A DNA stretch of 64,000 nucleotides from a virus. The stretch's first letter is position 1; every line of letters begins with the position of its first letter. Made by a program: the position numbers and the translations under genes. The notes below the pieces were generated by a model. It ran no database searches. It saw only the letters and a program-made list of their open reading frames with translations, and was not told the DNA's origin. The stretch spans positions 62,001 through 126,000 of IMG/VR virus record IMGVR_UViG_3300045919_000302; one strand, given 5' to 3'. Below are positions 18,820 to 37,379 of the stretch, one piece after another.

Positions 18820-18825
18820 GTCAGG

Positions 18826-18853
18826 ACCATAACAAATGGTCCTGGGCTGTCAA
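18826..18853 (-). promoter_or_regulatory. leaderless promoter with operator palindrome
   Basis: TTGACA (18853-18848), 16 nt, TATGGT (18831-18826), then 6 nt to the ATG at 18819. The perfect inverted repeat AGGACCAT-AACAA-ATGGTCCT (18823-18843) covers the spacer and -10 box, a typical repressor position. Confidence 0.65.
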
Positions 18854-19758
18854 TGCTCGTCCGCTTTACGAAACGTCTTTGTGTAGCTTTCCTTCCATCG
18901 GAGCTTTAGATCTGTCCGGCCTTTGCCGGTCCAGTAGCCCTGGAAGTGGGCGGGAACCTCTGCACCCTCCGCGTTGAAGATCCGTTCTTTCTTGAAGTCG
19001 AAGCCCACGAGAGTCACTGGAACGCCGTGCTGACTCTCCATCATCTTGTCGTAACGGCGCTGTTCCTTGGGTTTTCGAGTCAGCGGTCTCTTGGGTGGGC
19101 GGTGCTGACGGAGGTCCGGATCTCCCGAATGAACGTAGAGGAAGCAGTTGAGAGCGAATTTAAGGGTCTCGACAGGGATGTGAAAATCCGGGTTCACTTC
19201 CTTGAGACGATCTACCGCGCCCTCGATCTCCTCGTCCTCGGAGTAGAAGTGGAGAACGTAGCGATCCCAGTTGTCCGCGTGGACTCCGTCGGGTCGCTTC
19301 ATGAACTGGAACTCCAGGCGCTTATATACTTGGCCGCGCGAGTCTTTGCCGGGATTGCCTACACACCCAATATAAACAGCGGTGTAGTTCGGGAAGTCAT
19401 CCTCGAACTCGATGCAGACGATCTTGTTGTCGGCCGGGATCACCCGAGCCGGGACGGTAATCTTGAGTTTAGAAAGCTCCTCAGAAAACTGACGGGCCAT
19501 CTTGTAAATCAGCGCCCCGTCCTGTTTGAAGATCTGGTAGAAGAGTAACGTCCTAACTGGAGCCAGCATCTGGTTCACGCGAGAGAGCATCTCGGGAAAC
19601 ACGTGCGGCTTGACGTGATTATAGACGCAATCGATGTGACGGAAGTCCGCTGCATGGTCGTGGGTCTTGTTCGTGATCTCGACCAGCTTGGAAACGTAGT
19701 CCATCCTCCGGACCATGTCCGGCATCCGATTGAAAAGCTCCCAGTGTGTCTTTCTCAT
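18850..19758 (-). CDS. AcrVA2-like protein
   Basis: The 302-aa protein ends with HFQGYWTGKGRTDLKLRW near residue 280. This closely follows the C-terminal H-x-x-GYW-x-G-x-G...RW block I recall for AcrVA2, the anti-Cas12a protein of Moraxella mobile elements. An earlier block (FALNCFLYVHSGDPDLRQ, then a basic R/K-P linker) also fits that family. AcrVA2 lowers Cas12a production. Related proteins occur widely in phages and may do other jobs. No Cas12a is visible here. Confidence 0.65.
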   Translation of the reverse strand: MRKTHWELFNRMPDMVRRMDYVSKLVEITNKTHDHAADFRHIDCVYNHVKPHVFPEMLSRVNQMLAPVRTLLFYQIFKQDGALIYKMARQFSEELSKLKITVPARVIPADNKIVCIEFEDDFPNYTAVYIGCVGNPGKDSRGQVYKRLEFQFMKRPDGVHADNWDRYVLHFYSEDEEIEGAVDRLKEVNPDFHIPVETLKFALNCFLYVHSGDPDLRQHRPPKRPLTRKPKEQRRYDKMMESQHGVPVTLVGFDFKKERIFNAEGAEVPAHFQGYWTGKGRTDLKLRWKESYTKTFRKADEH

Positions 19759-19759
19759 C

Positions 19760-20728
19760 TCAGTATCCCCCAGATCCGCAGCCGTGGTTCATCTTGTGAT
19801 GTTCCAAGAGTGCGGTCAGCTTTGCTGCCGGCATGTCCTTGTACTTAGCTTGGACCGCCACGAGCCGATCGCGGATGGTCTTCTTGGTGTTGAACACGCC
19901 GTGGTTCTTCTCCGCGCCCTGGTGACGATCGAGCTTGGCCTGCTCCATCTGGCACCACTCCTCGAACTTCACCGGGTGATTAATGGAGAGCCAGAGCAGC
20001 TCCTCCGCGCTCATGTAGGGGCAGCGCATGCAATTGCTCGGGAACGGAACCGCGTGGCCGACCGACTTGATGTACTCCTGGCACGCGGCGCGATCAAGAC
20101 CCTCTTCGACCAGCGGGAACACCCGGTGAATCGTCTTCCAGAAGGAGTCTTCCTTGCTGGCCCGCTGCTTCTCTTCAAGACGCTTGGACTTCTCGGCACG
20201 ACTCTCCTCGCCGGCAGCGTACCCGATCAGCACATCGATGTGACCGTTCTCCTGGAAGAACCGTTTGAAGGCCGCCTTTCCGCATCCCTGAGTCTTCGGG
20301 TTGACCTTAAGGCCGTAGCCGTACTTAGTGTTGATCCAGGCGTCGAGGTACTTGTAGATCGGATCCACTTTGACCTTGAGTGTGCAGGTCTTGGTGCCGA
20401 GCTGGATCAGGGTCGGTGTGAACTCGCTGTCGGCCCCGCGCATCTGGGGCTCGATGATGTTCGGCCACGCCGGACTGTGGTAACCCATGTCCGAAGTCAG
20501 ATGGACAAACTCGATCTTGTGGATCAGGCAGAAGTGCTTGACCTCTTGGACATGCTCCCACGTGTGATCGTGCTCATCGCCGGTATCAGATTGAACCACC
20601 ACGAAATCCCCGGGCGCGTATTTCGCTCTCCAGGCCGGATCGTAGACGTACTTGTAGAGCATGGTGGTCGAGTCTTGGCCGCCACCGAAGCTGAGGACTG
20701 TCAGGTGAACTTTGCGTTTAACGCTCAT
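19760..20728 (-). CDS. PAPS-reductase-like PP-loop protein
   Basis: The PP-loop SFGGGQDSTT is at residues 13-22 near the N-terminus, as in PAPS reductases and related adenylating enzymes. Later motifs include GYAAGEESR and NCMRCPYMS near residue 230, a Cys pair typical of phage members. The 322-aa protein could adenylate or transfer sulfur to a nucleic acid or small molecule. The substrate is unknown. It has its own class A promoter with no SD. Confidence 0.8.
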   Translation of the reverse strand: MSVKRKVHLTVLSFGGGQDSTTMLYKYVYDPAWRAKYAPGDFVVVQSDTGDEHDHTWEHVQEVKHFCLIHKIEFVHLTSDMGYHSPAWPNIIEPQMRGADSEFTPTLIQLGTKTCTLKVKVDPIYKYLDAWINTKYGYGLKVNPKTQGCGKAAFKRFFQENGHIDVLIGYAAGEESRAEKSKRLEEKQRASKEDSFWKTIHRVFPLVEEGLDRAACQEYIKSVGHAVPFPSNCMRCPYMSAEELLWLSINHPVKFEEWCQMEQAKLDRHQGAEKNHGVFNTKKTIRDRLVAVQAKYKDMPAAKLTALLEHHKMNHGCGSGGY

Positions 20729-21025: not shown

Positions 21026-21152
21026 TGCCCCGGTCAAAGGCGATCAGCACGCCCTCGACGCCTTCGTTCTTGAGGTAATGCGCCAAGGTCGTGGCCTCTT
21101 CCTGAGTTAGGCCATCCATCACTCCCACGTCGGGGATCTTCCTCTTGCTCAC
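20991..21152 (-). CDS. hypothetical mini-protein, 53 aa
   Basis: The GTG at 21152 is GTGA-coupled to the PP-loop gene. The protein reads MSKRKIPDVGVMDGLTQEEA... with a helix and a short strand (GVEGVLIAFD). Its position between two PP-loop genes suggests a related role. Confidence 0.6.
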   Translation of the reverse strand: MSKRKIPDVGVMDGLTQEEATTLAHYLKNEGVEGVLIAFDRGNEPGEVAQGRR

Positions 21153-22096
21153 GCGACCGCCTTTTCTTTGCGGGCCTTGCGGTGAAGGTCGCGAGCCACC
21201 AGGGACTTGCGGAGCGCGGCGAGCTGGGCGACCTCCTTTTCAACGAGAGCCGGATCCGCCTTCACGCCAGTCACGGCCTGGAGCGAGACATCTTCGCCGA
21301 GCTTCTTGCTCTTCTTCGGGGCCTTGATCGTCTTGCCCAGGAACTTCTCCAGGGCGACGTACCGGGCGTACAACTGAGTCCGGCGCTTGGCGGCGATAGC
21401 GAGGTCGCCATTGTTACCGAACACACAGAAGGAGCAGGAGAGGCGGCTCATGCCGGCAGCGTATGCCCAATGCACTTCTTCGCCGGCCTGACCGATCATC
21501 TGGATCACGCTGTCGGTCGGGACGTCGAAGATCGGGAGCCAGTCGTACCACTCGCGACCCGCGATCGAGTTCTTCTCGTCGAGCAGGAAGGTAAGGGCTT
21601 CGCCGGTCTTCTCGAAGTGATCCTTGTCGAGACCCATCTCACGGTCGTCGCTCTCGCCGCCGCGAAGGCCCATGCAGTTGACGATCAGCTTGTGGCCAGT
21701 GCCCTTGATGAACTTCTGGATCGGGCCGCGCTTTCCGTCGCTGGTGCAGAACCGCTGGCCCTTGGACGGGAAGTTCATGTTCGCGACGAACATCGAGATG
21801 AGATCCTTGTCGTCGCCGTTCTTGAAGATCGAGTGGACCACGTTCAGCTCGTGGCCGCCGAGGTACTCCCGGATATGATCCTGGGTGCCGGGCCACTCGA
21901 CGTCGCCGAGATCCGCATGCACGTAGACGATCTGACCGGTCGGGACCAGGGAGCGGACCAGGATCGCCATGAGCTGGGAGTCCTTGCCGCCGCTGTGGTT
22001 CACGAAGAACATCGCCTTGCGCTCGATCAGCGACTTTATCCGGGCGAGGACTTCGGGCTTCAGCATCTTGATCAGTTTGTTGATGACGTTGTTCAT
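21149..22096 (-). CDS. second PAPS-reductase-like PP-loop protein
   Basis: The classical PP-loop SGGKDS is at residues 35-40, followed by YVHADLGDVEWPGT. The C-terminal CSFCVFGNNGDLAIAAKRR is typical of phage PAPS-reductase-like proteins. It lies about 400 nt upstream of the other PP-loop gene in the operon. I use the ATG at 22096 (315 aa); upstream in-frame TTG lies in the promoter. Confidence 0.8.
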   Translation of the reverse strand: MNNVINKLIKMLKPEVLARIKSLIERKAMFFVNHSGGKDSQLMAILVRSLVPTGQIVYVHADLGDVEWPGTQDHIREYLGGHELNVVHSIFKNGDDKDLISMFVANMNFPSKGQRFCTSDGKRGPIQKFIKGTGHKLIVNCMGLRGGESDDREMGLDKDHFEKTGEALTFLLDEKNSIAGREWYDWLPIFDVPTDSVIQMIGQAGEEVHWAYAAGMSRLSCSFCVFGNNGDLAIAAKRRTQLYARYVALEKFLGKTIKAPKKSKKLGEDVSLQAVTGVKADPALVEKEVAQLAALRKSLVARDLHRKARKEKAVA

Positions 22097-22102
22097 ACTT
22101 AA

Positions 22103-22132
22103 ATAGTACAAAACGTACTACAAAAAGTACAA
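22103..22132 (-). promoter_or_regulatory. leaderless promoter with TACAAAACGTAC element
   Basis: TTGTAC (22132-22127), 18 nt, TACTAT (22108-22103), 6 nt, ATG at 22096; no SD. The 12-mer TACAAAACGTAC (22107-22118) recurs at 59614-59625 upstream of another gene. Confidence 0.55.
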
Positions 22133-24322: not shown

Positions 24323-24778
24323 TCAGGCCGCCTGATCAAAGGCGTGATCATATACGCCATCCCAGCAATTCGGATCCGTTGGGCGATTGGCATTCGGGAC
24401 GGAAATTCGCTTGCCGCTCGCGGGAGGCGCGATGGCGAAATGAACCCATCCCTTGGTGTACCGGAAGTCCTCGAAGTAGAGGCCGAGCTTCTGCATCAGC
24501 GGGAGATTCGCGAGCACCCAGGCGCGGAGTTTTCCGTCCGGATCCGAGATGTCGCAGGCCAGGCCCTTCATGTGATTCGAGTGAGTAGCAGCCCCAGGAG
24601 TTGAGGAATTGATCGCGGCCGGACGCCAGCCTGAGTCCACGATCATGGGAAGACCGTAGGCCGCCCTTACGAGGTTCATTTGGATCAGGAGACGATCCAG
24701 ATTGGTGCTGATCTCAGCCGTATATTCCTGGGGGTATTGCTTATCCCGACCCTTGAGTAGCTCGTCTTTTAAAATCAC
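24323..24778 (-). CDS. M15-family peptidase, phage lysin
   Basis: The 151-aa protein has SGWRPAAINSS, HSNHMKGLACDISDPDG and WVHFAI. These are the His, Asp and C-terminal His zinc ligands and acid-base region of the VanY/D-Ala-D-Ala carboxypeptidase-like M15 fold. It likely cuts peptide cross-links in peptidoglycan during lysis. The GTG at 24778 has a perfect SD (AAGGAGG). There is no signal peptide, so export would need a holin. Confidence 0.85.
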   Translation of the reverse strand: MILKDELLKGRDKQYPQEYTAEISTNLDRLLIQMNLVRAAYGLPMIVDSGWRPAAINSSTPGAATHSNHMKGLACDISDPDGKLRAWVLANLPLMQKLGLYFEDFRYTKGWVHFAIAPPASGKRISVPNANRPTDPNCWDGVYDHAFDQAA

Positions 24779-24888
24779 CGTGGCCTCCTTGCATTTGCAC
24801 CCAATTGAACTACGATCTAGGTATCGGCGTAAACGGATTTGCTTCGATAGCGGAGGCCGGTCACGGAAGATCTGGCCCCGCTCACTCG

Positions 24889-25758
24889 CTAGAACTTTCG
24901 CTCTCTTTCCATTCTCCTTAGGCATTCGAACCCGGTCTCTCCTGGGAGCATCTCATAGCCACAGCCGGTTGCGCCGCCTTTCCAGGATCCAGTTTCTTCT
25001 CCCACCTCTTGGTCGAATTCCACAGAGATCGAACGCTCAACCTTTTTCGGTCCAAATCGAAAGGGAAGCTTATGGAATATTTTCCACCGCCACTCACGCT
25101 CCTCGATGTGGAACTTCACCTTCCTGTACTGGATCTCTCCGCTCTTCAGCGTATACGTGTAGTTCCCAAGAAAGATGGCCCGGTGGTCCGGAAAGTCTTC
25201 GTCTTTGAAGTCGAAGTACCCTACCTTGGGATTTTTCTTTCTCTCCTTACGAATGGCCTGGCACCGCTGCTCATAGGTGGACATGTTCCATTTGCCGTCA
25301 GCGGTCAGTACGACGTGCCTGACGCTCGCGCCCCAGTCCCACGGGAAATGGAAGTGCTTGCTGTAGCCGTACTTCTTTTTGTCGCTTCCACTTGCGGCGC
25401 AGGTGTGGCCCCAGTGCCAAACGAAGGTGTCCTTGTATGAGTAAAACCCCCAATCTCTGCCATGCGAGTCCTCAAACCATCTCGGGTTCTGGACCTCTCC
25501 GCGCTTGAACCATCCAATGGCCCACCTCTTCGGAAGGAGTCTGTGAAAGGTCAGGTAGAGAGAGCAGCCAAGAATGGCGACAGCCAACTGGACCGCACGA
25601 TCGTCCTGGCCACCCAGAGTGACCATGCACCTGACGAGCGGGTCCGCCCTCTTCCGGCTGATGTGATACTCCCATCGCCAACTGTTCGCCCAGCCGCGCC
25701 AGTGGCTGATGCTACTCTTGCGACTGTTTGGATGATCCAGCAGGTTCTGTGATCTCAT
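24889..25758 (-). CDS. conserved Trp-rich phage protein, 289 aa
   Basis: Many Trp and aromatic residues (WANSWRWEYHISRK, LGCSLYLTFHRLLP, SKHFHFPWDWG) and a Gly/Cys-rich end (SWKGGATGCGYEMLPG) match a widespread phage protein of unknown function. ATGA-coupled to the ParB-like gene. Confidence 0.65.
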   Translation of the reverse strand: MRSQNLLDHPNSRKSSISHWRGWANSWRWEYHISRKRADPLVRCMVTLGGQDDRAVQLAVAILGCSLYLTFHRLLPKRWAIGWFKRGEVQNPRWFEDSHGRDWGFYSYKDTFVWHWGHTCAASGSDKKKYGYSKHFHFPWDWGASVRHVVLTADGKWNMSTYEQRCQAIRKERKKNPKVGYFDFKDEDFPDHRAIFLGNYTYTLKSGEIQYRKVKFHIEEREWRWKIFHKLPFRFGPKKVERSISVEFDQEVGEETGSWKGGATGCGYEMLPGETGFECLRRMERERKF

Positions 25759-26513
25759 TTGGTCATCTCCGCCAGAGTTTTGATCAGAGCGGGCTCCAGG
25801 TACTCGTTGATGTTTCTGTTCTGCTCTGAAGCGAGCCTCGACAGAGTTTTGATCGCTTCGAACACGTTGTCGTTCGCGTTGAGCAGGACGGTTTCACTCT
25901 TGCCGTTCATGAAGATCACGCAGCCGTGGGTCACCATCTCGGCATGGTTTTTCATGATGCGCTGAACGCTTTTGGCAAACTTATCGAAGCTGCCACCAGC
26001 TCTCTCCTCGGCTTTCTCGATCTGGCTTTCCACGTCGTGACCGAGACCCTTCATCTCCTTCTTGACGCTCTTGGTGAGCTTCTTCCATAGACTCTTGTCC
26101 GTCACGGCGAAGATGTCCTGGAGCTTTTCGGTTCCGAACTTCTGCGAAAGACGCTCATAGTCCTTCATGAACTTCTCTGGGTTCTGAGATCCCCGGAGAA
26201 CGTTCAGGCGGAAGGCCACGAGCCCAAAGAGATCCTGATCGGACCACTTCTCGTCGGTGTGAACGACGGCCGGCACGTAGGTCATCCCCGCGATCTTGGC
26301 GGCCTTATACCGGTGCTCACCCCCAAGGATGATGTACTTCCCGTCCTGGGTGGGAACCACGTTGATCGGATCCAAGAAGCCGACATCCCGGATCTCCTCC
26401 ACCAGGCGCTGAAGCGTGGTCTCGGACATTTCGTTGATGTTGTGCGGATTCAGCACCAGGGCATCGACGTGGATGTCCACCGTCTTGAGAGAGCTTTCCT
26501 TGGTCATCTCCAT
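25755..26513 (-). CDS. ParB-like nuclease-domain protein
   Basis: The N-terminal domain has LVLNPHNIN, then YIILGGEHRYKAAKIAG, the G-G-E-H-R-x-x-A box of ParB/Srx proteins. The C-terminal 150 residues are helical with no obvious HTH. It is the second ParB-type protein in the window and has a distinct C-terminus. Possibly a nuclease or transcription factor. Confidence 0.75.
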   Translation of the reverse strand: MEMTKESSLKTVDIHVDALVLNPHNINEMSETTLQRLVEEIRDVGFLDPINVVPTQDGKYIILGGEHRYKAAKIAGMTYVPAVVHTDEKWSDQDLFGLVAFRLNVLRGSQNPEKFMKDYERLSQKFGTEKLQDIFAVTDKSLWKKLTKSVKKEMKGLGHDVESQIEKAEERAGGSFDKFAKSVQRIMKNHAEMVTHGCVIFMNGKSETVLLNANDNVFEAIKTLSRLASEQNRNINEYLEPALIKTLAEMTK

Positions 26514-33578: not shown

Positions 33579-33827
33579 TTATTTTTTCTCGTACAACGAT
33601 CTCGCCTCGTCGGAAGAACCGGTAGGATCTTTAGTGACGCTGGTCACGATGCGTCGAAGAATCTCGGGAGTGACCGCCGCAAGAACCAGTCCTGCGTCCG
33701 GACGCTTGATGATCTGTTGGTCCTTCTCCAGCTTTACGAGATCCGGGTCTCGGGCGATCACATAGGTGGCAATGCCGTACCCGAGGATGATGCCGAAAAA
33801 TAAAACCACCACCATTGCGAGGATCAT
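33579..33827 (-). CDS. N-anchored membrane protein, 82 aa
   Basis: The N-terminus (AMVVVLFFGIILGYGIATYV) is one membrane helix. The rest is polar and helical, ending in a charged tail. ATGA-coupled to the glycosyltransferase gene. Confidence 0.6.
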   Translation of the reverse strand: MILAMVVVLFFGIILGYGIATYVIARDPDLVKLEKDQQIIKRPDAGLVLAAVTPEILRRIVTSVTKDPTGSSDEARSLYEKK

Positions 33828-35551
33828 TTTGAATCTCCCTTGGAAGCGATAACGGTTGAAACCGACTCAACGACATCTCCGACCGAGATTCCGCTCAAGC
33901 AGTGATTCGTCCCGTACTCGCAGGACACGAACGTTACGGGGGGCCTTTGGTTGTGCAAACAGAATCGGCACTCTGTCTTGGGCACGAGCGCCAATGTTTT
34001 AGCCTCTCGGCTAATAACGCGGTAAGCCGGATCGGCCACTGTGAACAGACCGACGATCGGGACCTCTGTCGTCTGGGCGACGTGAAGGATGCCGCTGTCC
34101 ATGCCGACAAAGACCACAGCTCTCTTGCACAGCTCCCGGATCTCGTGGATCGTCAACTCGTCCACGAGCGAGAGCCCTGGGAGAACGAAGTCCCCGCTCC
34201 TGCCGACGGTGACTACCTTCAGGCCCTGATTATTCAACTCATTGGCAACGGCCACCCAATTCCGCTCGGGCCACTTTCGATTGTCCCAGGTCCTTCCGGC
34301 CGCGTGAATCACGGCTACGCGGTCAATCCAAAGATCGACCGATCCAAGTTTATGCTTCAGAGTCTTAAGATCGGCATCGCCTGAGAACAGCTCCGGATCC
34401 AGACTCTCTCCAGCGACCGCCGCCTCCTGCGCGTAAGCCTCCCAGATTGGCACATTTGGCCGCTTCTCGTAAGCGAGGTCCAAATCGACAAACCTGTCAC
34501 GCTTGATACCAGCGGCAGACTTCACCGCAATCACCTGAGGATCATGCCGGAACACTTCGCCGCATTGAGTCTCTACGATCACCTTTCCCTTGGCCAATTG
34601 CTTCAGCTTCCGGATCACCCCGGTGGCCAAGATCACATCACCCAGGGCGCCTGTTCTCCGTACGACGATCGTCTCGGGAGGAGTCGGAGACCTGAACGGG
34701 TGTTCGTGCGGGTTCTTTTGGAAGATCCACCGATCGGCGGTGTTGAAAATCTTTGGCATGTTCAATGAAGAAATTCCGTTAGAGAGCCCGATAAAGTCAT
34801 ACCCCTTGAGGTCCTCTTGAAACTTCTTGAGACCCTCCATCTCCTTCATGTACCAGGCGCGATACTTGGATATCTTATCGGCTTCCGTTCTTCCGCGAGT
34901 AGCGCCCTCTGCGTGAATCGCTTTGATGGCAGGAGAATAAAAAACACGCCAACCGCTACTCCAGGCCCGAAGACAATACTCGGTGTCTTCGCATGCAACG
35001 AAGTAGCTCTCGTCCAGATTCCCGATCTGGTCGATCATCTCTTTACGGATGGCAAAGAGAGCGCCAGTTACGCCAAGAATGTACTCTGGTTTAAGAACCT
35101 TTGGATCGTAATCCGCGTGCCAGCCTCTATGAGAAAACATCCTTGCGGCTTCGTGAAAAAAAATCCCGCCGTGCTGAATCTTCCCATCCGGGTAGAAGAG
35201 GAGGCCACCGACGATCCCAATCTTTGGATCCTTTTGAAAGGCTTCAACGATCTGCTTGTCAACCCGCTCCGTGAATTCGATGTCGTTGTTGACCAGGACA
35301 ACAACGTCCCCGGTGGCTTTTGCGATCCCCTCATTCACCGCCTTGGCAAAGCCCCCGTTGGTCTCCCTCTGAATCAGAGTGACGCCCCATTCGCTGGCCA
35401 GGACCTTCATCTCCTCACGAATCTCAGTGCTGCTCCCGTCGTCCACGACGATGATCTCATGATTGCCACCATGGTGCCGAGAGAAGGATGCCAGGCACGC
35501 ATTCGTGAGATCGGGCCTATTGATAGACGGGATGACGAAAGACAGTTTCAT
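33824..35551 (-). CDS. GT2-GT9 fusion glycosyltransferase
   Basis: Residues 1-240 are a GT-A (GT2) domain: FVIPSINRPDL, VVDDGSS, VVLVNNDIEF (DxD-like), GGLLFYPDGK and CEDTEYCLR. From about 290 a GT9-type (heptosyltransferase) GT-B domain follows: RRTGALGDVILATGVIRKL, VIHAAGRTWDNRKWP and GMDSGILHVAQ. The 575-aa protein is likely a two-step glycan enzyme. Start 35551 by ATGA overlap. Confidence 0.8.
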   Translation of the reverse strand: MKLSFVIPSINRPDLTNACLASFSRHHGGNHEIIVVDDGSSTEIREEMKVLASEWGVTLIQRETNGGFAKAVNEGIAKATGDVVVLVNNDIEFTERVDKQIVEAFQKDPKIGIVGGLLFYPDGKIQHGGIFFHEAARMFSHRGWHADYDPKVLKPEYILGVTGALFAIRKEMIDQIGNLDESYFVACEDTEYCLRAWSSGWRVFYSPAIKAIHAEGATRGRTEADKISKYRAWYMKEMEGLKKFQEDLKGYDFIGLSNGISSLNMPKIFNTADRWIFQKNPHEHPFRSPTPPETIVVRRTGALGDVILATGVIRKLKQLAKGKVIVETQCGEVFRHDPQVIAVKSAAGIKRDRFVDLDLAYEKRPNVPIWEAYAQEAAVAGESLDPELFSGDADLKTLKHKLGSVDLWIDRVAVIHAAGRTWDNRKWPERNWVAVANELNNQGLKVVTVGRSGDFVLPGLSLVDELTIHEIRELCKRAVVFVGMDSGILHVAQTTEVPIVGLFTVADPAYRVISREAKTLALVPKTECRFCLHNQRPPVTFVSCEYGTNHCLSGISVGDVVESVSTVIASKGDSK

Positions 35552-36726
35552 TTTCTCTCCAGTGTTGTCTGATAAAAGCGCTCCCAAAGTGGTGCGTTTT
35601 CCTTGATGTCAAACTTCCTTACGAACGTCGTATTGGCCTTGACCCGCTCCGAGAGATCAGTCCGGCAGGCTTCACGCAAGGCTTCAAACCAGCTTCTCTC
35701 GTCATTGGGCGTAGCCATCCCACATCCGATCGAGTCTCCGTACGTCACTCCAGCTGAGGCGATCGGGAACGACCCGATGGCCATCGCCTCTGTCACCTTG
35801 AGGTTCGATTTTCCTCTGTTGAAGGGGATATCTACCACGGGCGCGAGGCTGATCTCAGGTTTGATCGCCTTGTAGGTCTGGTAGTAATTCATGCACGGCA
35901 CCGCGCTAAAAAGAAACAATCGATCCTGCGGGATGATCTCAAGCAGAGCGCGATGGGCGTACCCCATCAAGCCGAAGACCACATCCTCACTCCGGGAGAT
36001 CCGGCGGACCGCACCCACGATCAGCTCCAGATCCTTCTCATGCGACGGTCCTCCGGACCAGAAGATCATCTTCCTTCCCTGGCGCTTCTCGTCAAGATGC
36101 GGCGGCGTGATCTTTTGATTGTTCGAAAAGATGATGGGCTCGACCGGCGGCATCGCGCTGATCAGATCCAGATCAAGGCAGTTCGGGATGACCTCCACGT
36201 TCGGGAGATAATTCGAGTAGAGCTGCTTGAGGTAGGGCGTGGTCACGTCTACAGCGTCCGAGATCCGAAAGCTTTCTTCGATGATCTCCCGCCTGGACAC
36301 ATGGAACTGATGACCAGGGTTCCATTCTGGGATATTCAGATAATCGTCGTCGGCTGTTTGAACCACCACCTTGCCGGCGGACTTCGCGAGCCGCATCAGC
36401 CTCAGGTGGCTCATACCCACCGGCCGCTGGAACACGACGACGTCACTCTGGTTAATTTTGTCCAGGATGGATTTTTTCCACACCTGGATGTCGGCAGCCG
36501 ACACCAAGAGCCTCTTGCAGGAGGCGCAATGGGACTCTTCCTGGTCCCACTGCACGTCGTAAGGCCCGCAGTAGAGCCCAGCGCTCATGCACGGGTCGCA
36601 AAATACCTGCCGCTCGAACTCCTCGTCTTCGCACTGGTGTCCCCGCTCCGAAAGCTGGGACATGGGTGTAAGGACTCGAACCATCCAGCAGGCGTCACGA
36701 CGTCTGGTCGCGTAAAAAATTTTCAC
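35548..36726 (-). CDS. GT-B glycosyltransferase
   Basis: The 392-aa protein has an N-terminal Cys-rich segment (CDPCMSAGLYCGPYD, CASCK), then a GT4-like C-terminal half: PNVEVIPNCLDL, MIFWSGGPSHEKDLELI and the E-x7-E-like KVTEAMAIGSFPIASA. It starts with GTG at 36726 (GTGA overlap, SD GGAGG). With its neighbour it may modify DNA, virion or host surface sugars. Confidence 0.75.
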   Translation of the reverse strand: MKIFYATRRRDACWMVRVLTPMSQLSERGHQCEDEEFERQVFCDPCMSAGLYCGPYDVQWDQEESHCASCKRLLVSAADIQVWKKSILDKINQSDVVVFQRPVGMSHLRLMRLAKSAGKVVVQTADDDYLNIPEWNPGHQFHVSRREIIEESFRISDAVDVTTPYLKQLYSNYLPNVEVIPNCLDLDLISAMPPVEPIIFSNNQKITPPHLDEKRQGRKMIFWSGGPSHEKDLELIVGAVRRISRSEDVVFGLMGYAHRALLEIIPQDRLFLFSAVPCMNYYQTYKAIKPEISLAPVVDIPFNRGKSNLKVTEAMAIGSFPIASAGVTYGDSIGCGMATPNDERSWFEALREACRTDLSERVKANTTFVRKFDIKENAPLWERFYQTTLERK

Positions 36727-37379
36727 TTTCGCCTCCAATTCAGTGGTCTCGTTGCAGTGTCTTGTTCTGTCCAGCCATACCGGAGACGGGTATGAATGGT
36801 TGCAGGCTTAAGGCCGGTCCGCCTTGCCCACTGAGCGATGGTCATCCGCTCTCCGTTTGCGCTAACAAAACGATTCTTTCTTAGATTGTTTTGCTGCTCA
36901 GTCCGAGTGGCCCATCTGCAATTGCTTTTAGAGTAATTACCATTATTATCGATTCGATCCAGCGTTAGCCCATCGGGTCGCTCACCCATGTCGTTGAGGA
37001 AGCCCTCAAACTTATGCCACCGCTCGCAGACTCCGATCCCTCTGCCTCCATAGTTGTGGTAGGCTCGGTTTTTTTCGCTATAGCAACGCGACATCATGCC
37101 TTCCCAAATGCCGTACATTCTGGTCTTGGACATCCCATGGGTCACGTTGGATGCGGAGACATTTCGACCAAGTTGAGCCGAATTTTCCCTACGGAAACAG
37201 CCGCAGGAAGTCGTATGACCAGATCTCAGATTGCCGGCCCGGACAATCTTCTCGGCTCCACAATCACAGCGACAGACCCATAGCCTCGTCCAGCCGCGCG
37301 ACTCAAGGAAGCTCACAGCTAAAAGTCGACCAAACCTGTCCCCTTCCTTGATGTTACCGACTCCACGCACGGATTCCAA
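36723..37379 (-). CDS. HNH homing endonuclease
   Basis: CRCDCGAEKIV and CGCFRREN form an N-terminal zinc region. THGMSKTRMYGIWEGMMSRC and YHNYGGRGIGVCERWHKFE lead to LDRIDNNGNYSKSNCRWAT, the HNH core. A C-terminal RTGLKPATIHTRL is a homing HTH. A paralogue lies at 48277. TTG start with SD AGGAGG. Confidence 0.8.
   Translation of the reverse strand: MESVRGVGNIKEGDRFGRLLAVSFLESRGWTRLWVCRCDCGAEKIVRAGNLRSGHTTSCGCFRRENSAQLGRNVSASNVTHGMSKTRMYGIWEGMMSRCYSEKNRAYHNYGGRGIGVCERWHKFEGFLNDMGERPDGLTLDRIDNNGNYSKSNCRWATRTEQQNNLRKNRFVSANGERMTIAQWARRTGLKPATIHTRLRYGWTEQDTATRPLNWRRK

Follow-up and report, generated by a model that had tools for sequence, protein, structure and literature searches.

The protein encoded by the phage gene analysed here is, judged by profile comparison, very probably a remote homologue of AcrVA2, and its target is quite probably a protein other than Cas12a. 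We tentatively regard it as a far-diverged member of a broad superfamily of phage and prophage proteins that would lower the amount of such a target. To our knowledge, AcrVA2 is the only branch of this superfamily that has been characterised.

Results

The window, meaning the whole 64,000-nucleotide stretch that was analysed, spans bases 62001-126000 of a 149,291-base IMG/VR virus record. It encodes helicases, a primase, DnaB and an exonuclease and represents a replication and accessory region; glycosyltransferase-like genes (phrog_841, phrog_7162) are located among the replication genes at 33824-36738 on the minus strand. The focal ORF is intact (302 amino acids, ATG start, GC3 0.72). As read from the DNA, its ATG lies 1 nt past the stop codon of the upstream PP-loop gene, and because of this one-base spacing the two genes are probably co-translated. 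On the other side, the 162-amino-acid protein encoded downstream of the focal gene is putatively winged-helix-like by eye. Just before the start of its gene, a perfect 9-base inverted repeat (CAGGACCAT-5-ATGGTCCTG, positions 18822-18844) overlaps the -10 element of a consensus promoter match (TTGACA-16-TATGGT, with TG before TATGGT). From its sequence, this repeat looks like a putative operator of the downstream gene; no other good copy of the palindrome was found within the window.

Table 1 Features of the focal protein and its gene neighbourhood (window coordinates).
Feature	Coordinates	Strand	Evidence
Focal ORF, very probable remote AcrVA2-superfamily protein	18850-19758	-	hhalign with AcrVA2-family profiles; shuffles and other window ORFs as controls
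C-terminal hallmark block, residues 270-292, AHFQGYWTGKGRTDLKLRWKESY	18883-18951	-	Motif and hhalign
Second matching segment, residues 168-234	19057-19257	-	hhalign with the C-terminal block removed (residues 1-262)
N-terminal part, residues 1-190, predicted helices followed by strands	19189-19758	-	Predicted structure; no family sequence match
PP-loop (PAPS-reductase-like) enzyme, directly upstream of focal gene	19760-20728	-	phrog_424, E 4.5e-22
Second PP-loop enzyme, same gene run	21149-22111	-	PF01507, E 3.7e-5; phrog_424, E 6.5e-31
Acb3-family (CBASS inhibitor) homologue	24889-25758	-	PF25187, E 1.1e-38, 133.9 bits (cut-off 27)
Downstream gene, 162 amino acids	18331-18819	-	Profile searches; no family match

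Homology was assessed both with the focal protein itself and at the profile level. No match to the focal protein was found in Pfam, NCBIfam or PADLOC, and nothing significant was returned from the PDB, phage and plasmid records, or IMG/VR. A search of PHROGs gave a weak match to phrog_6160 (E 0.23) that is confined to residues 270-288. The same family is matched by ORF43 of Shewanella phage vB_SbaS_Y11 (1.1e-58), which also matches AcrVA2 in PDB entry 7ci1 (1.5e-72) and was deposited as AcrVA2 (PMC10846135). By sequence comparison, the weak phrog_6160 match appears to have pointed to the right family. Searching via the adjacent PP-loop gene gave no closer relatives of the focal protein, and further motif scans found none nearer to it.

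Profiles of the family were compared with the focal protein using hhalign. The first profile, for which ten additional relatives of Y11 ORF43 from phages were aligned, matched residues 144-290 (probability 92.2, E 5.7e-7, score 52.9), whereas the best of 100 shuffles scored 23.2 and the reversed focal sequence 18.4. With a profile of 64 IMG/VR members the score was 56.3, compared with maxima of 20.5 among 54 other window ORFs and 21.5 among 100 shuffles; the 74-member profile obtained by adding ten members gave a probability of 96.3 and an E-value of 1.6e-9. Since each of these E-values refers to a single comparison, it is the controls, which score far lower, that carry the claim of homology. 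The C-terminal 41 residues alone scored 46.3 (E 1.1e-8; shuffle maximum 16.7). With the block removed, residues 1-262 scored 36.1 (E 1.4e-4; shuffle maximum 21.5) and aligned over residues 168-234, which comprise a beta strand, two helices (LKFALNCFLYVHSGDPDL) and the start of a basic linker. Two co-linear segments, one before the basic linker and one at the C-terminus, match the family independently. For residues 1-190 alone, hhalign detected no sequence similarity to the family, and the order of their predicted helices and strands is compatible with it. Finally, a profile of the focal protein and its nearest relatives, built without Moraxella or Shewanella sequences, had 7ci1 (AcrVA2) as its sole PDB match, at full length (E 3.1e-17). 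A preliminary description of this DNA had noted an AcrVA2-like pattern in the C-terminal block and in the segment before the basic linker. The profile searches uphold it as remote homology: the block is present, as HFQGYWTGKGRTDLKLRW, and at sequence level the likeness extends beyond this short motif to the preceding segment.

The C-terminal block of the focal protein, AHFQGYWTGKGRTDLKLRW, occupies the place of HWHGYWQGTGQAKEFRVRW in the Moraxella bovoculi AcrVA2 (a sequence identical to PDB 7ci1; L026 in our set). The core motif of the family is H-x-R-x-x-H-W-H-x-x-W-x-G ... W, of which the focal block keeps H271, W276, G278 and W288. The upstream H-x-R and the second His are absent, with Ala-Glu-Val-Pro-Ala preceding H271 and Gln replacing the second His. 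Among the 73 relatives that have the block, a His lies five residues before the central His in 70, an Arg three residues before it in 69, and the second His is present in 67. A few relatives, L113 among them, also lack the upstream His and Arg.

Structure prediction had been proposed as a further comparison with AcrVA2. A single-sequence AlphaFold2 model of the focal protein was poor (pLDDT 41) and was set aside for fold comparison, its quality being too low. The order of elements in the single-sequence prediction (N-terminal helices, strands, two helices, linker and four short C-terminal strands) follows, as a predicted order, the three-domain NTD/MID/CTD description of AcrVA2 (PMC10846135). 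An alignment-based model built from family rows reached a pLDDT of 72 and a pTM of 0.67. When this model was compared with viral predicted structures by Foldseek, Erwinia phage RisingSun gp126 (E 4.4e-5) and a Yoloswag protein were found, both of which are assigned to the AcrVA2 family by tblastn. In the PDB search, the 50 matches listed of 238 do not include 7ci1. The structural comparison thus recovers a family member but not 7ci1 among those listed matches, and the recovery indicates consistency rather than independent proof, as family rows went into the model.

A motif scan of IMG/VR identified relatives with the same sub-motif as the focal protein. One of these, L108 (AHWSKYWVGKGRTDLKVNW), is identical to it at 14 of 21 positions over residues 270-290, and another, L114, is similar by pairwise BLASTP over residues 192-288 (E 6e-9). 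These YWxGKGR-type proteins (L108, L109, L113, L102 and L114) share an H[WF]xxYWxGKGR block with the focal protein, although overall identity is below 25% and most of them are longer. In a tree built from the C-terminal part of the family proteins, AcrVA2 and Y11 form one tight clade on a long branch (support 100/100), and the focal protein falls outside it, grouping with L102, L113 and L109 on long branches that leave its exact place unsure. By this placement outside the Moraxella/Shewanella clade, the focal protein is not AcrVA2 proper. The isolated-phage copy Y11 ORF43 belongs to the same superfamily, but unlike the focal protein, which matches neither it nor 7ci1 directly, it lies within the AcrVA2 clade. 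AcrVA2 of M. bovoculi (PDB 7CI1/7CI2; phrog_6160) and the focal protein are both encoded by phage genes and are similar in length, AcrVA2 having 322 residues; they have in common a strand with two helices, a basic linker and an H[WF]xGYWxGxG...RW block. They differ in that there is no pairwise similarity between them, H-x-R-R and the second His are absent from the focal protein, its N-terminal half is unmatched, and the gene neighbours are not the same.

The actinophage RGHWR family (phrog_15934) was considered as closest kin of the focal protein and rejected (hhalign E 0.32). This family does match the AcrVA2 family (hhalign E 3e-7): its proteins, for example in Propionibacterium phage G4 and Streptomyces phage Yara, carry a VRGHWRxQ...KGP C-terminal module akin to the AcrVA2-family C-terminus, and apart from the motif they show no similarity to the focal protein. 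Actinophage and podophage proteins in our set (L003-L008; phrog_15934 and kin) have the VRGHWRxQ module. Such a protein adjoins the DNA primase in Yara and lies between DNA polymerase and VapE in ctNMl277.

The preliminary description had also placed the focal gene next to PP-loop enzymes and raised the idea of an anti-defence island. Two PP-loop genes do lie upstream of it on the same strand, the nearer one directly adjacent, and both match phrog_424 (Table 1); the two proteins differ from each other and are weakly similar to the sulfur-modification proteins SspD/BrxP/DndC. The Acb3 homologue lies 5.1 kb upstream of the focal gene on the same strand, and its own neighbours encode a ParB-like protein (25755-26513) and an M15 peptidase (24323-24925). 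An anti-defence island at this locus is possible on the evidence of this one gene, Acb3, but the idea is weakened by the neighbours of the focal gene, which do not recur beside other superfamily members save for short M15-peptidase matches in two loci. No neighbour gene is common across superfamily loci, and the comparison gives no support to an anti-defence island conserved across the family. In 5 of 166 loci (a raw count without a base rate), the AcrVA2-like gene is directly preceded on its own strand by a PP-loop and ParB-like gene pair. These five loci (L040, L057, L135, L138 and L193) are on contigs from unrelated bacteria and phages; their PP-loop genes are of the SGGKDS/SAGKDS type and encode ~430-470 amino acids, and their ParB-like genes ~170-230. 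The ParB-like profile of these loci matches the window gene at 25755-26513 (E 2.5e-7 in a two-sequence search). Their PP-loop profile matches neither of the two PP-loop genes in the window, which indicates that it represents a different family.

We asked whether superfamily members occur together with Cas12a. Cas12a was sought with TIGR04330 in 50 bacterial genomes, picked non-randomly from 79 loci with a superfamily member, the members having been found via the motif H[IL]RR[AG]HWH. It was detected in one of these 50 chosen genomes (a raw count without a base rate), that of Moraxella lacunata, which also shows that the search works. Given this count, Cas12a cannot be the usual target of the superfamily. 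Members are spread over many phyla and phage types, and the isolated phages that carry them infect Erwinia, Lactobacillus, Pasteurella and other hosts. For the focal protein, loss of Cas12a is an unlikely function, since the protein lies outside the AcrVA2 clade, lacks H-x-R and the second His, and belongs to a superfamily with Cas12a in so few of the surveyed genomes. The activity given for AcrVA2 in the preliminary description, a reduction of Cas12a levels, is not one that these results extend to the focal protein.

Discussion

AcrVA2 has been reported to recognise the nascent N-terminal peptide of Cas12a, triggering decay of the cas12a mRNA (PMC13131331, PMC12908700), and it also binds an internal Cas12a peptide (7CI2; PMC13131331). 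By analogy, the focal protein might act through a mechanism of the AcrVA2 type, a reading we hold with considerable doubt: mRNA decay is carried over here from one characterised protein at very low identity, by inference only. The explanation that we put forward, with reservations, is that the focal protein is a far-diverged superfamily member that would recognise a peptide of one specific protein, possibly during its synthesis. Recognition would lead to loss of the target mRNA, and the amount of the target protein would fall. On this view, some host protein other than Cas12a would be targeted, whether or not it belongs to a defence system. Target choice would fall to the variable N-terminal half, and the step shared by the family would depend on the conserved C-terminal block; the focal copy has lost part of this block, so that the shared step may work differently in it. 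This explanation draws on the C-terminal homology, on the order in which the elements of that half occur, on the position of the protein on its own branch, and on how rarely Cas12a is encoded in genomes with superfamily members; the lowering of a target is inferred. Speaking against it are the lack of a direct match, the unmatched N-terminal half and the missing H-x-R and second His, which are otherwise near-invariant. The low quality of the single-sequence model, the dependence of the alignment-based model on family rows and the absence of 7ci1 from the 50 listed matches also count against it.

Several other explanations can be weighed against the same evidence. That the resemblance is due to chance, with convergence in a short C-terminal motif only, might be suggested by the fact that a block of 24 residues scores best while the N-terminal half is unmatched; however, residues 168-234 match alone and in order, and every control scores far lower, making this highly improbable. 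We consider it just as improbable that the protein is a true anti-Cas12a factor that lowers host Cas12a as AcrVA2 does. Its homology to AcrVA2 and the presence of another apparent anti-defence gene, Acb3, in the genome would be consistent with such a role, but it sits outside the tight 100/100 AcrVA2 clade, itself on a long branch, retains the core motif only in part, and belongs to a superfamily that is almost never found in Cas12a-bearing genomes.

Two further explanations, both rather unlikely in our estimation, retain more weight. The protein could keep the same fold and bind or inhibit a host or defence protein directly, the loss of residues having removed mRNA decay. The binding of an internal Cas12a peptide by AcrVA2 and the absence of H-x-R and the second His from the focal protein would both fit, although no partner is known for it and the cited AcrVA2 literature gives no role for these residues. 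Alternatively, it could associate with nucleic acids or ribosomes and serve the phage itself, acting in replication, in translation or, together with the PP-loop enzymes, in modification, and not in counter-defence, AcrVA2 having been recruited from such a family. The very wide spread of the superfamily over phyla and phage types, the coupling of the focal gene to a PP-loop enzyme, the PP-loop and ParB-like pair upstream in 5 of 166 loci, the RGHWR match to the AcrVA2 family, and the actinophage and podophage proteins encoded beside DNA primase, DNA polymerase or VapE genes all point in this direction. Against it, the superfamily has no common neighbour and its distribution is patchy, as is typical of accessory genes.

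Returning to the reading of the focal protein as a diverged, target-lowering member, a broader and more speculative extension is that AcrVA2 could represent one specialised lineage within a large superfamily of phage proteins that silence mRNAs in a peptide-programmed manner, with a different host target for each; we consider this somewhat improbable. Genes of this kind in phage genomes may easily be annotated as anti-CRISPR AcrVA2. Superfamily members occur widely and nearly always without Cas12a, and such annotation should therefore go no further than homology. The finding raises the testable question of what the other members target, and whether mRNA decay guided by nascent peptides is a general phage strategy. 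If the silencer reading is true, the focal protein, as it lacks part of the shared motif, could reveal which residues are needed for decay.
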